The position numbers and the translations under genes were made by a program. Of a stretch of DNA of 33,236 nucleotides, positions 8,667 to 13,513 are shown one piece after another. The stretch is from positions 1-33,236 of the forward strand of contig JAFNJB010000051.1 of NCBI GenBank assembly GCA_017601245.1. Reading direction: 5' to 3'. How positions within the stretch are numbered: the stretch's first letter is position 1; each line of letters begins with the position of its first letter. The notes below the pieces were generated by a model that was given only the letters and a program-made list of their open reading frames with translations, made no database searches and was not told the origin of the DNA. The DNA is from Candidatus Brockarchaeota archaeon (lineage in GTDB: Archaea > Thermoproteota > EX4484-205 > JAAOZP01).

Positions 8667-10052
8667 ATGAGCTCCCCCTTGGAAACTGCTGTAGATTATA
8701 GAATGCCGGAGGTTAACGTTATCGGAGGGGGTGACATTGCAGAACATGATTTAAATATTCTTGAAAACATATTCAAAAGATTCTTTGAAAATGAATATGA
8801 AAAAATATTAATGCCTCCGCTTTTTATTTTGGACATTTCTGAGGATGCCGAATTATCAAAAGCAAAGAAGGAAACTAAAATAATTCCAGTTAACGAAAAT
8901 ACTGTAACACTGGCAGGGTACCCCTATATTCTATTGGTTTTAAATTCATGCGGAGCACACGGCATTGTTCACATGCGTCAACTAAGTAGGATAGAGATGA
9001 TGCAAAAATATGTTGATGCTGAAGTCACCATATACTCTTTAATGTCTATACTTAAAGCGAGTATGGGTAGAGGTATTGGTTCATTAGTAAAATTTGACAT
9101 AGAAGAAAGCGATAGAAATCTTATACTTGAAGGTACGGAATTTAGAAGACTGATTGAGAATATGAGAGAAACTCTTCCTTACACTCCCTTCAGAATCGAT
9201 AGAGATAAATTAGTATTACTAGAATCCATGTCCCTATTAAATCAATTTTTAGCATTGGAAAAGCCAGAAATAAGAAAAATCAGAGGTTTAAGCAAGAATA
9301 TAAGTGATGAGATTCATAATAGAATTATGAAGATTCTTATGGAAGATTCTGAGAAATCTTTATACTTAGAATCCATCGGACTGATTTCAACTTTAAGTGA
9401 AATACTTCCAAATACGTATCTCAATCTATTGTTTTACGCAAGTTTCTTGACTAATCTTGGCGCCCAAGGCCTCTTATCGTTAGCTAAGAGTATTGCTTGT
9501 GAGGAGAAGAAAGTCAAAGTATTAGCTATGGTGGAGAGGGAAGTGGAAAGTGGTGGGAATCGTTTAGAACTAATTTTTGAATACGATATTTTCGATTATG
9601 AAAATTTTGTTAAGCATAAAGAAAATTTAATTAGGATAATTGACGAAGGATTAGAAATATGTCGAAAGGGAAGGCCTTTTAACAGATTAAACTATGTGAG
9701 ACAGAAACTGGATAGCGTCAAGACGCCTTCTGAGCTTCAGTTTTTCAGCGATTCTTTTTCACAAACAATATTTAGCAGTAGTCCATCATCTGATCAGATT
9801 CCAATTTACTATATTCATTCAAACGGATCTTCATGTAAAAAGGAAGAAGCAATGCTTTTCTCATCTTTCTTTGCAGACTACATTATCGCAACGAATATTT
9901 TGAATGCTTTATCTACATCAAAAGAAGGCAATATAAAAGGCATTGTGAAAAATGCAATACGGTGTCCCTTTAGGAGAGCACCTCAAATGAAATGTGTATG
10001 GAACCCAGAGTGTGAACATGAGAAAGCGTGGTTGGATTTTATCGGTATTTAA
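8667..10052 (+). CDS. Uncharacterised 461-aa protein with C-terminal Cys/His cluster
   Basis: Long intact ORF. No family recognised from the sequence. C-terminus IRCPFRRAPQMKCVWNPECEHEKAW (C-x9-C-x5-C-x-H), a possible metal-binding tail. Confidence 0.8.
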   Translation: MSSPLETAVDYRMPEVNVIGGGDIAEHDLNILENIFKRFFENEYEKILMPPLFILDISEDAELSKAKKETKIIPVNENTVTLAGYPYILLVLNSCGAHGIVHMRQLSRIEMMQKYVDAEVTIYSLMSILKASMGRGIGSLVKFDIEESDRNLILEGTEFRRLIENMRETLPYTPFRIDRDKLVLLESMSLLNQFLALEKPEIRKIRGLSKNISDEIHNRIMKILMEDSEKSLYLESIGLISTLSEILPNTYLNLLFYASFLTNLGAQGLLSLAKSIACEEKKVKVLAMVEREVESGGNRLELIFEYDIFDYENFVKHKENLIRIIDEGLEICRKGRPFNRLNYVRQKLDSVKTPSELQFFSDSFSQTIFSSSPSSDQIPIYYIHSNGSSCKKEEAMLFSSFFADYIIATNILNALSTSKEGNIKGIVKNAIRCPFRRAPQMKCVWNPECEHEKAWLDFIGI

Positions 10053-10218: not shown

Positions 10219-10572
10219 ATGCTTAAAAAGAATCTTTCTGTAAATTACTCCATGTCGGATAGCGTTAATACCTTTAGAAGGTTTCTTGAGAAAAAATCTG
10301 AAGGTATCAGGATCGATAGGAAGGAGGGTAAAGCGTTTTGGGACGTTCCCGTAAATTCGAGCGAAGCGAATTACACCGGTTTTCTAGAATTTGCTTATTC
10401 CACTAACTTGTCTGGGGATTACGTATATCTCGATAGGAGCACGGCATTTGAAATCGTGAATAGACTCAACTGGATGGAGAGCAAGATAAAGAGACTGGTT
10501 AAAAGAGAAAGAATAATGATTTTGCTGCTCTCAGCGGTTTTAATAATAGCTGTTTTAGGGTGGTTAACATGA
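10219..10572 (+). CDS. Small tail-anchored membrane protein, unknown function
   Basis: Hydrophilic N-terminal domain then one C-terminal TM helix (RERIMILLLSAVLIIAVLGWLT). Possible alternative start at ATG 10252. Stop overlaps the ATG of the MoxR gene (ATGA at 10569-10572). Confidence 0.75.
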   Translation: MLKKNLSVNYSMSDSVNTFRRFLEKKSEGIRIDRKEGKAFWDVPVNSSEANYTGFLEFAYSTNLSGDYVYLDRSTAFEIVNRLNWMESKIKRLVKRERIMILLLSAVLIIAVLGWLT

Positions 10573-11774
10573 GTAGTCTAAGACCTCTAGTAAACAGATT
10601 CAAAGAGGAATTAGAGAGGAGATTTATTGGGAATGAGAACATCAAGTCTATTCTGATCCTTAACCTTCTCCATAAAAGGTCTACAATATTAATAAGGGCT
10701 CCAAGAGGCACTGGCAAATCAACGCTCATGCTTCTAATTCTCAAGGGTCTGTTCGGAGACGATTTTGTAGTCATTTCGGGAGCATCTGAAGTTAAGAGGG
10801 GAGAGGTTGTGGGAAGGCTTCACATACCGTCACTTGAAAGAAAGGGTATTGAGAAGGTGCTCTGGGCAAAGTTTGTTGAAGCGCGAGGTAAGGGCATAGA
10901 CGAGGTAAATAGACTTAATCCCTATACTACCGCAAATATTCATCACCTCATGCAGTTTGGAGAAGTTTGGGCGTATGGACAGAAATATACTGTTGAAGAT
11001 TATACTCTAATAGCTAATGAGAATCCCAATGACTCTACGACATTCATGCAACCCCCACCTTTTTACGATAGGTTTGACATAGCTGTATACCTTAATTCCC
11101 TTTCTATAAGCCAGAAGTTTGCATTACAAGAATTTAATGAAAAAAACGGATATGATTTAGTTAGGTCGATGCCTCAAGTAATGAGTTTCGAAGAGCTTTC
11201 TCAAATAAGGAGAGAGGTTGAGGAGACTGAATTAGACCCGGAAATAACTGGGTTTATAAACGTCTTGATTAGAGATTTTCAAATATGTGTCAAGGGTAAG
11301 GAACACAGTAATATGCCTTTACCAGTTTTATGCGAAGGTTGCCATTTCACTAGATTTATATGCAGCAGGGTTAGGGAACCTCCGAGTGAGAGAGCAACAA
11401 TCGTCCTACTTCAATTAGCGAAGGCCAAGAAGTGGTTGGATGGAAACGTTGATGAAAAAGACATATTGGAAATGGCAAAGTGGGTATTAGTACATAGGAC
11501 TGGTTTGCTAAATCCGGAAAAGCCATTGAAAGAAATAGATGAACTTATAGAAATGGAGAAAGAGAGGATGTTTGAAAGAGAGTCTAGAAAGCAGTGGTTT
11601 ATCCTCAATGAGCTATACTCCGGCTTCAACCCGAGCCTATACAGGACGGCTAAGGAAATAGCTGCTGAAGACAATGTCTTTGCAGAAGAGCTTTTCCTCC
11701 TAGAGGAGAAATGGATAAAAGAGGGTAAGATAAGCCGAGAAGAAACTCTAAAGGCCGAATTGGGCTTAGAATGA
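10569..11774 (+). CDS. MoxR-family AAA+ ATPase with four-Cys insert
   Basis: Walker A APRGTGKST, Walker B GIDEVNRL, sensor-1 region LIANENPND...FYDRFD. Start moved from track GTG 10560 to ATG 10569, which overlaps the upstream stop. Cys insert C-x14-C-x2-C-x6-C at about 11286-11363. Confidence 0.88.
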   Translation: MSSLRPLVNRFKEELERRFIGNENIKSILILNLLHKRSTILIRAPRGTGKSTLMLLILKGLFGDDFVVISGASEVKRGEVVGRLHIPSLERKGIEKVLWAKFVEARGKGIDEVNRLNPYTTANIHHLMQFGEVWAYGQKYTVEDYTLIANENPNDSTTFMQPPPFYDRFDIAVYLNSLSISQKFALQEFNEKNGYDLVRSMPQVMSFEELSQIRREVEETELDPEITGFINVLIRDFQICVKGKEHSNMPLPVLCEGCHFTRFICSRVREPPSERATIVLLQLAKAKKWLDGNVDEKDILEMAKWVLVHRTGLLNPEKPLKEIDELIEMEKERMFERESRKQWFILNELYSGFNPSLYRTAKEIAAEDNVFAEELFLLEEKWIKEGKISREETLKAELGLE

Positions 11775-13513
11775 GAATGAACGAGGAGACTATAAGGAGA
11801 ATCTTCGCAGAAGTAAGAAGCGAATTATACTTTCCACCCTGCGAGCTTCAAATAACACATGACAATAAAGAAAGCCCCTTCTTCATTACGGGTTCAAAGA
11901 TTTACATATCTCCAGAATCCATACCTAATGGAGTAGACAAGGAGGAATATTTAAGGTCCGTTATGAGACATGAAGTCGCTCATCTTCATTATTGCCCCTA
12001 CGACGTAAGAACAGCCTACGAACTTATTAAAGAAGCATACGATTCTTGTAGGAACTGGGATATTGCCTACTTTTCTTTTTTACTTTTTTCAGACTTGAGT
12101 GTAGATTGTTTTTACCTTCTTAATAGATTTGGAGAAATACCATATCATGTTAATTACTTCGTTAAGAGCCGATTTGGAATAAATCGGTACATCCAAGAAT
12201 CATACAGGCATTTACTGGGAATTGAGCATAAGGAAGGGAATTTTGAAGTAGAGAATGTTGCTAGACAGCTAAGCATGGTTATGAAGTCTGAGAGGAATTG
12301 GTTTAGTAAAATAAGGCTTTTAGCATTAATACTGGCGAAGAATAAGGTTAGGGTCAAGATACCCAAGAGGATATTCGGCGTAAGAGGAACAATCCCATTA
12401 AGGGAAGATTTGAGTAAAGACAGTATTGAGAGAATATCTCAAGTCCTCGGCGGGATAAAGAATGCGGAGGAAGCTAAGAAGTTCTACGAATACTGGATTA
12501 AGCCGAGGTTAAGGGGTTCGGAAATGGATGAAATAAGACTGAGAATTAAAAAAATGGTTAGGAAAAGTAAAGTTGAAAGCAAGCTTAAAAAAGACAAGAG
12601 CCCGCGGGGTAAGGCAGTTTCCCAAGTAGACCTTAAGATAGGCGAAGAACCGGAATTGCCGACAAGCCTCAGCAAACCATTTGGAGAATTATCAGAGAAG
12701 ATGATCGAAGACACTCTTTGGAGAGTCTTCTGGTATAGGGCTAGAGCAAAGAGAACAATAATGCTCTATCTGGAAGAAGGAAGAATTCCCGAGCCCAGTC
12801 TATCAATAACAACTTACCCGACTGACTGGAATATTGAAGACGAAGTAGAAGACTTAGACATAGAATCCAGTCTTGACGAAGGCAGGTTAAGGGTAGAGAT
12901 AAACACAGTTAAATGGGAAAGTAAGATTATGGGTAAGGGGTCGAGCATGATCATAGCTCGAGTACCATCTAGCCTAATAGTATTGGATGCTAGTAAGAGT
13001 ATGCAATATATTTTTGATGATGCTGCAACCTCAGCATTCATAAACCTTCTCTCCGTTGAAAGAATTGGAGGAAGCACAGCGACTATAACTTTCTCAACAG
13101 AATACTACTATGCAGATTGGCATGATTCTACGCTCGAGAAGGAAATAGCACTAGCATTATACTTCGGGAAAATGACTATAATTCCCCTGAATAAGATTAT
13201 TGAAGTCATTAGTGGAATTGAAAACAGGGTGCTCATAAACATCATAACCGACTGCGGATGGCAGAATATCGAGGAAGCCCTTCCAATCTTAAGCAGCATT
13301 GTTAAAAGCGGTCACACTATAAAAATATTCTACCTTCGCGGAGGCGAATATCCAGAAAGGCTAAAGAGGGTAAGTATGATTAGCGGGGTTAAGATAATAC
13401 CTGTTAAGGATCCGGAGAGGGATTTACATTACTTAGTCATTAAAGAAACTACTGAAGAATATGGAAGCAGAGTAATGTCTTTGAAAGAAAGCGTTTCCGA
13501 TAGCTTGAAGTAG
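11771..13513 (+). CDS. Protein with N-terminal HExxH metallopeptidase-like domain and C-terminal VWA (MIDAS) domain
   Basis: MRHEVAHLHYCPYD (HEVAH at 11969-11983) with downstream FSDLSVD; VWA MIDAS LIVLDASKSM (about 12986) with TITFST and IITDCG. ATGA overlap with MoxR gene. Confidence 0.82.
   Translation: MRMNEETIRRIFAEVRSELYFPPCELQITHDNKESPFFITGSKIYISPESIPNGVDKEEYLRSVMRHEVAHLHYCPYDVRTAYELIKEAYDSCRNWDIAYFSFLLFSDLSVDCFYLLNRFGEIPYHVNYFVKSRFGINRYIQESYRHLLGIEHKEGNFEVENVARQLSMVMKSERNWFSKIRLLALILAKNKVRVKIPKRIFGVRGTIPLREDLSKDSIERISQVLGGIKNAEEAKKFYEYWIKPRLRGSEMDEIRLRIKKMVRKSKVESKLKKDKSPRGKAVSQVDLKIGEEPELPTSLSKPFGELSEKMIEDTLWRVFWYRARAKRTIMLYLEEGRIPEPSLSITTYPTDWNIEDEVEDLDIESSLDEGRLRVEINTVKWESKIMGKGSSMIIARVPSSLIVLDASKSMQYIFDDAATSAFINLLSVERIGGSTATITFSTEYYYADWHDSTLEKEIALALYFGKMTIIPLNKIIEVISGIENRVLINIITDCGWQNIEEALPILSSIVKSGHTIKIFYLRGGEYPERLKRVSMISGVKIIPVKDPERDLHYLVIKETTEEYGSRVMSLKESVSDSLK

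Follow-up and report, generated by a model that had tools for sequence, protein, structure and literature searches.

What kind of machinery is encoded by three tightly coupled genes in a draft genome of the Brockarchaeota (Thermoproteota; 1.3 Mb, 92% complete)? The genes lie in a window of 33,236 nucleotides, the whole stretch of DNA analyzed here (contig C43 of that genome). A sequence-only reading had proposed a membrane-docked pair of a MoxR-type AAA+ ATPase and a VWA protein, combined with an associated metallopeptidase. The gene coupling, the conservation among relatives and the predicted structures were therefore examined together.

Gene order and co-inheritance

The first gene encodes a small tail-anchored protein of 106 aa (TA, 10252-10572, + strand), the second a MoxR-like AAA+ ATPase of 401 aa with a Pfam AAA_5 match (AAA, 10569-11774, + strand), and the third a protein of 580 aa with a predicted N-terminal zincin-like domain and a C-terminal VWA domain (VWA, 11771-13513, + strand). 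An exact re-check agreed with the ORF coordinates first read and placed ATGA overlaps at 10569-10572 between TA and AAA and at 11771-11774 between AAA and VWA. The 4-base overlap is not fixed among relatives, in which the junctions run from large overlaps to gaps of ~20 bases. The first ORF does open at 10219 as had been read, but its translation probably begins at the ATG at 10252, since the proteins of relatives start at the position corresponding to MSDS...FRRFLE and a box-A-like stretch, TTAAAAAG, can be read ~26 bases upstream.

The VWA protein used as query gave matches in 19 of 61 genomes. In a sample of 400 Thermoproteota genomes, the VWA profile gave 39 strong matches distributed over 12 family-level groups, together with six further weak, VWA-only matches, and the AAA profile was strong in 38 genomes, the trio proteins being clearly set apart in score from the matches ranked after them. 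Both families occur jointly in 37 genomes, and the mismatches are fragmentary copies: the pieces in G002 and G265 reach contig ends, and G384 holds just a 92-residue C-terminal VWA remnant within a contig. This remnant (L150, G384:C40, 4728-5003), with no AAA or TA match close by, seems to be what is left of a degraded copy, or else an assembly error.

Wherever the contig extends far enough, a TA gene precedes AAA, also at loci overlooked by a simple gene caller. One genome, G291, has its VWA gene on a different contig from TA-AAA. The recurrence of the trio is more than chance, because the same genes in the same order and on the same strand are found across the 12 families with varying flanking genes. 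TA-AAA-VWA is a real conserved module, present in many uncultivated archaea and in line with the sequence-only reading, which had named loss of joint conservation as the observation that would count against it; such loss was searched for and not seen. The pairwise distances of AAA and VWA were correlated with r = 0.93 (32 loci), a high value that shared ancestry alone could yield. Two AAA genes from draft genomes, L089:5678-6913 (G372) and G025:C14:3003-4181, each contain one in-frame stop, which may reflect a pseudogene or a sequencing error.

No neighbors recurring consistently across families, which were sought as a clue to the client, were found near the trio. In the window, a 461-aa orphan ORF (8667-10052) is situated between an HMG-CoA-reductase-like gene and the trio; it features a Cys/His-rich C-terminus, has no family match and did not group with any ORF from the relatives sampled, in which the HMG-CoA-reductase-like gene adjoins TA. 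In G006, transposon-like ORFs (zinc-ribbon, TnpB-like; L027:3600-7850) lie just 3' of the trio; the rest of the genus carries a SIMPL-domain gene at this place. An anti-phage defence role was rejected, as just weak partial ATPase matches were obtained and the locus looks chromosomal. A viral or plasmid element was rejected as well: a pattern scan of 2.9 million viral contigs revealed no AAA or VWA relatives, no VWA relatives were found in plasmids, and the sole plasmid AAA match (pMETHO01) is distant.

Tail anchor, Cys4 insert and probable zincin-like domain

The TA protein carries a single hydrophobic segment (about 10513-10569, + strand; 19-aa Kyte-Doolittle value 2.73) that reaches the C-terminus and is preceded by six Lys/Arg residues, and it has no N-terminal signal. 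All 32 relatives share one C-terminal hydrophobic helix followed by a tail of 0-10 residues, with no further membrane segment and usually with a basic flank before the helix. The assignment as a tail-anchored protein, made at first sight of the sequence, is thus borne out by a helix anatomy kept throughout the family. The AAA and VWA proteins are devoid of such a segment, with highest 19-residue means of 1.6 and 1.4, respectively. According to the positive-inside rule, the remainder of TA would be on the cytoplasmic side. TA matched no family in Pfam, NCBIfam or PADLOC. Its proposed role as a membrane dock is plausible in view of the tail anchor, and from the gene coupling we infer that it binds AAA or VWA; alternatively, TA might have a regulatory role or be a membrane protein acting on its own.

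AAA possesses a Walker A motif (APRGTGKST, 10698-10724, + strand, containing GTGKST), a Walker B motif (DE), an invariant DRFD and an Arg finger region, which together with the AAA_5 core identify it as a MoxR-like AAA+ ATPase. Against Pfam, AAA_5 was above the curated cut-off (3.8e-7), and AAA_lid_2 and AAA_3 were below it; among 16 members, AAA_5 was matched in 16, AAA_lid_2 in 10 and AAA_3 in five. The closest PDB chain is 2r44. A helix-2 insert in the AAA+ core is a feature of MoxR-like ATPases (PMC7159879), of which seven subfamilies have been listed (PMC3893208); AAA could not be placed in any of these seven.

The Cys insert noticed in AAA is indeed present and separates the AAA core from the helical lid (C240/C255/C258/C265, 11286-11363, + strand), and its four cysteines, spaced as C-x14-C-x2-C-x6-C, are invariant in every trio copy covering the region. 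The Cys4 insert is probably a metal site. The segment is wholly missing from the five generic MoxR ATPases that ranked highest in the phylum, and its Cys pattern recurs in three distant ATPases, namely L135 (G028), L148 (G215) and the ATPase of plasmid pMETHO01 from Methanomethylovorans hollandica (L151, P0001; hhalign E 3.8e-17), so that a wider archaeal Cys4 MoxR subfamily exists. A VWA protein is encoded directly after the L135 and L148 ATPases, and that of L148, on a contig cut upstream, features a HELGH motif and a 4-base ATGA overlap. No TA homologue was found at L135, nor a VWA homologue among the annotated neighbors of the pMETHO01 ATPase gene. The latter (L151:5917-7665) has an extra C-terminal region. 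At L135 (G028:C8, 1199-6779), the Cys4 MoxR and VWA genes belong to a run that includes pilin-like and large secreted-protein genes and adjoins a TadC-like gene, a context pointing to a connection of that distant relative with pili or secretion.

The third protein ends in a VWA domain (12965-13468, + strand) with a complete MIDAS, composed of D406-x-S408-x-S410 (DASKS, 12986-13000), T469 (13175-13177) and D494 (13250-13252), and none of the five residues varies among 35 full-length relatives. With a MoxR-like ATPase encoded adjacent to a VWA protein whose MIDAS is intact, the two form a pair of the MoxR-VWA kind, as had been supposed. No family was matched by the VWA protein in Pfam, NCBIfam or PADLOC. 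The AlphaFold model of the whole protein had a mean pLDDT of 74, and its top Foldseek match was NorD in the NorQD complex, followed by ArnB and others.

The N-terminal domain of the same protein (residues 1-252, 11771-12526, + strand) is predicted to combine a minimal zincin-like fold with a helical bundle. Modelled alone by AF2, it reached a pLDDT of 88.5, and the two most probable Foldseek matches in the PDB were the minimal archaeal zincins proabylysin (0.97) and projannalysin (0.94), both at E ~0.5. A profile comparison with MJ1213 (4qhj) gave a sub-threshold match (E 0.085). Although the matches are statistically weak, a zincin-like fold is likely.

Within this domain, the stretch H67-E-V-A-H71-L-H73-Y-C75-P-Y-D78 (11969-12004, + strand) is conserved in the form RHxxxHxHxCPY(D/N). 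Among the 35 full-length copies, H67 and H73 are present in all and H71 and C75 in 34 each, and position 68 is Glu in 17 copies and one of eight other residues (T/D/A/Y/I/H/W/N) in 18. At least two changes are needed on the tree to explain the distribution of Glu68, which all 16 members of the section of the tree around the window protein possess and which also occurs in L093. Both motifs that had been read in the third protein, the HEVAH (residues 67-71) and the MIDAS, do exist there, but HExxH is not a feature of the family. The postulated active metallopeptidase has to be given up as the family function, since the catalytic Glu is lost in 18 of 35 copies. As the ligand-like residues persist whereas the catalytic base is variable, the function of the family as a whole cannot hinge on peptide hydrolysis of the usual zincin type, and the N-terminal domain is read as a zincin-like, putatively metal-binding, non-working protease.

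A putative membrane-tethered machine and its rivals

In NorQD, an ATPase ring cooperates with a VWA adaptor that contacts the client through its MIDAS (PMC9976466). By analogy with NorQ/NorD, AAA would assemble into a hexameric ring on which VWA docks, the MIDAS metal would hold an acidic patch of the client, and ATP hydrolysis would pull the client open or into shape. TA would hold the machine against the membrane on its cytoplasmic side, and the client would then be a complex in or at the membrane whose genes lie in another part of the genome. The N-terminal domain of VWA might hold a metal ion via His/His/His/Cys and serve as a client- or ring-binding domain with no protease activity. The Cys4 insert might stiffen or gate the AAA lid, as a structural zinc site or, less likely, as a redox or Fe-S sensing site. 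That the operon encodes such a membrane-tethered MoxR/VWA remodelling machine, with a non-protease N-terminal domain and a Cys4 structural zinc or sensor site, is the reading we favor, with modest confidence. L135 without a TA gene, pMETHO01 without a VWA gene nearby and the separation of VWA from AAA in G291 are points against it.

The clients of described MoxR/VWA pairs were searched for in 30 trio-bearing genomes, in every one of which a known partner would be expected. Heme-copper oxidase/NOR, the NorQD client, was found in none of them (control genomes match), and neither was the large subunit of the MoCo CO dehydrogenase, the CoxDE client. CobN/ChlH (Mg/Co chelatase) was found in two. 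RuBisCO, the client of CbbQ/CbbO, was present in 16 genomes, and the complex-I 49 kDa/hydrogenase family in 22 (PF00346, the complex-I 49 kDa family, also matches hydrogenases), both being absent from the window's genus; complex I is one of the partners reported for RavA/ViaA. Each of these clients is therefore missing from some or all trio-bearing genomes and was rejected as the partner of the trio. A secretion-type ATPase family, the only tested client family present in the window's genome, was found in 30/30 and is uninformative, because it also occurs in trio-less genomes and in all controls. The client would thus lie outside the tested families, or be of too general a kind for such a test.

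These counts bear on the idea that the trio is a metal- or cofactor-insertion chaperone of the NorQD, CoxDE or cobaltochelatase type, with the Cys4 and His/Cys sites as carriers or sensors of the metal. MoxR/VWA pairs of assigned function often act in this way (PMC9976466, PMC3893208) and the trio has two conserved putative metal sites, but the lack of the known clients, present in numbers from none of 30 genomes for COX1/NOR and MoCo dehydrogenase to 22 for complex-I/hydrogenase, makes the idea rather unlikely; another metalloenzyme may still be the client, and the idea overlaps with the membrane-tethered machine. A working zinc protease in VWA, which would turn the trio into an AAA+ protease docked on the membrane and serving quality control or maturation cleavage, is more doubtful still. 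The zincin-like fold is plausible, the HEVAH of the window protein is intact, its nearest relatives on the tree and L093 all have the Glu, and the distant L148 carries HELGH; a core protease, however, should not tolerate the replacement of this Glu in more than half of the copies, which required two or more changes on the tree and left the other parts of the trio as they were.

The trio might also assemble or regulate a type IV pilus-like or other secretion or surface structure, as archaeal MoxR/VWA genes are known from predicted surface and secretion loci (PMC5898192). The TadC-like and pilin-like neighbors of L135 and the universal presence of the secretion-type ATPase are consistent with this, but the former context belongs to a single distant relative and to no trio locus, and the latter extends to genomes lacking the trio and to all controls, leaving this the least probable of the three alternatives.

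A further extension of the membrane-tethered reading is put forward more tentatively, as a possibility that falls short of probable: the trio may represent a dedicated MoxR/VWA class distributed over many lineages of the Thermoproteota, in which TA delivers the ATPase to the membrane, two metal sites, the Cys4 of AAA and the His/Cys site of a pseudo-protease, exert control, and the client is one unserved by the described pairs. MoxR/VWA machines are widespread and few have known clients, and the archaeal ones have scarcely been studied. Since the trio is compact, strictly co-inherited and equipped with its own candidate anchor, it renders an archaeal MoxR/VWA role directly testable. The N-terminal domain of VWA also provides an example of a protease-like domain inside an AAA+ machine that has kept its metal-site residues and lost the catalytic one.

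Comparison with known MoxR/VWA systems

The trio resembles NorQ/NorD in combining a MoxR-clade AAA+ ATPase and a MIDAS-bearing VWA partner in one operon, and among PDB folds the third protein is matched best by the NorD VWA domain. It differs in the extra tail-anchored gene, the Cys4 insert and the zincin-like N-terminal domain, and the trio-bearing genomes are without heme-copper oxidase/NOR (0/30). CoxD/CoxE, CbbQ/CbbO, CobS/CobT and ChlI/ChlD likewise pair a MoxR-clade ATPase with a VWA partner and differ in that their clients occur in none or only some of the trio-bearing genomes. RavA/ViaA is a MoxR/VWA operon acting at the membrane (PMC9489729), a precedent for the location proposed for the trio machine. 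RavA and ViaA bind lipids directly, whereas the trio encodes a separate tail-anchored protein, and no RavA- or ViaA-specific family match was found in the trio proteins.

A parallel in architecture and gene order is offered by the DUF2201 pairs of bacteria and archaea (PF13203 putative metallopeptidase plus PF09967 VWA-like), in which a MoxR gene is followed by a protein with an N-terminal HExxH-type and a C-terminal VWA domain. The pairs on Synechocystis and Mycolicibacterium plasmids even share the 4-base overlap, and the Glu of DUF2201 is variable too, as exemplified by HVATH in L104. DUF2201-type pairs (L104, L105) were also noticed in two sampled Thermoproteota genomes without the trio (G027, G048). 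In contrast to these pairs, none of 16 trio members matched the DUF2201 profile even at E 10. Pairwise profile comparison gave E 0.0012 for the VWA part and E 0.19 for the N-terminal domain, whose hhalign alignment is in register at HExxH and not significant. The third His of DUF2201 (HExxHxxxxH) is replaced by HxC in the trio protein, the ATPases paired with DUF2201 have no Cys4, and no annotated tail-anchored gene adjoins the inspected pairs.

The suggestion that this locus is an undescribed system can accordingly be divided. It stands insofar as no curated family in Pfam, NCBIfam or PADLOC covers TA or VWA, only generic AAA families cover AAA, and no paper combining MoxR, a tail-anchored protein and archaea was retrieved in the literature searched; it does not stand for the general pattern of MoxR with an HExxH/VWA protein, which is already known from the bacterial DUF2201 pairs. 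What is known is the pairing of MoxR with a zincin-like/VWA protein, and what is new is the tail-anchored subunit and the archaeal Cys4 subfamily.
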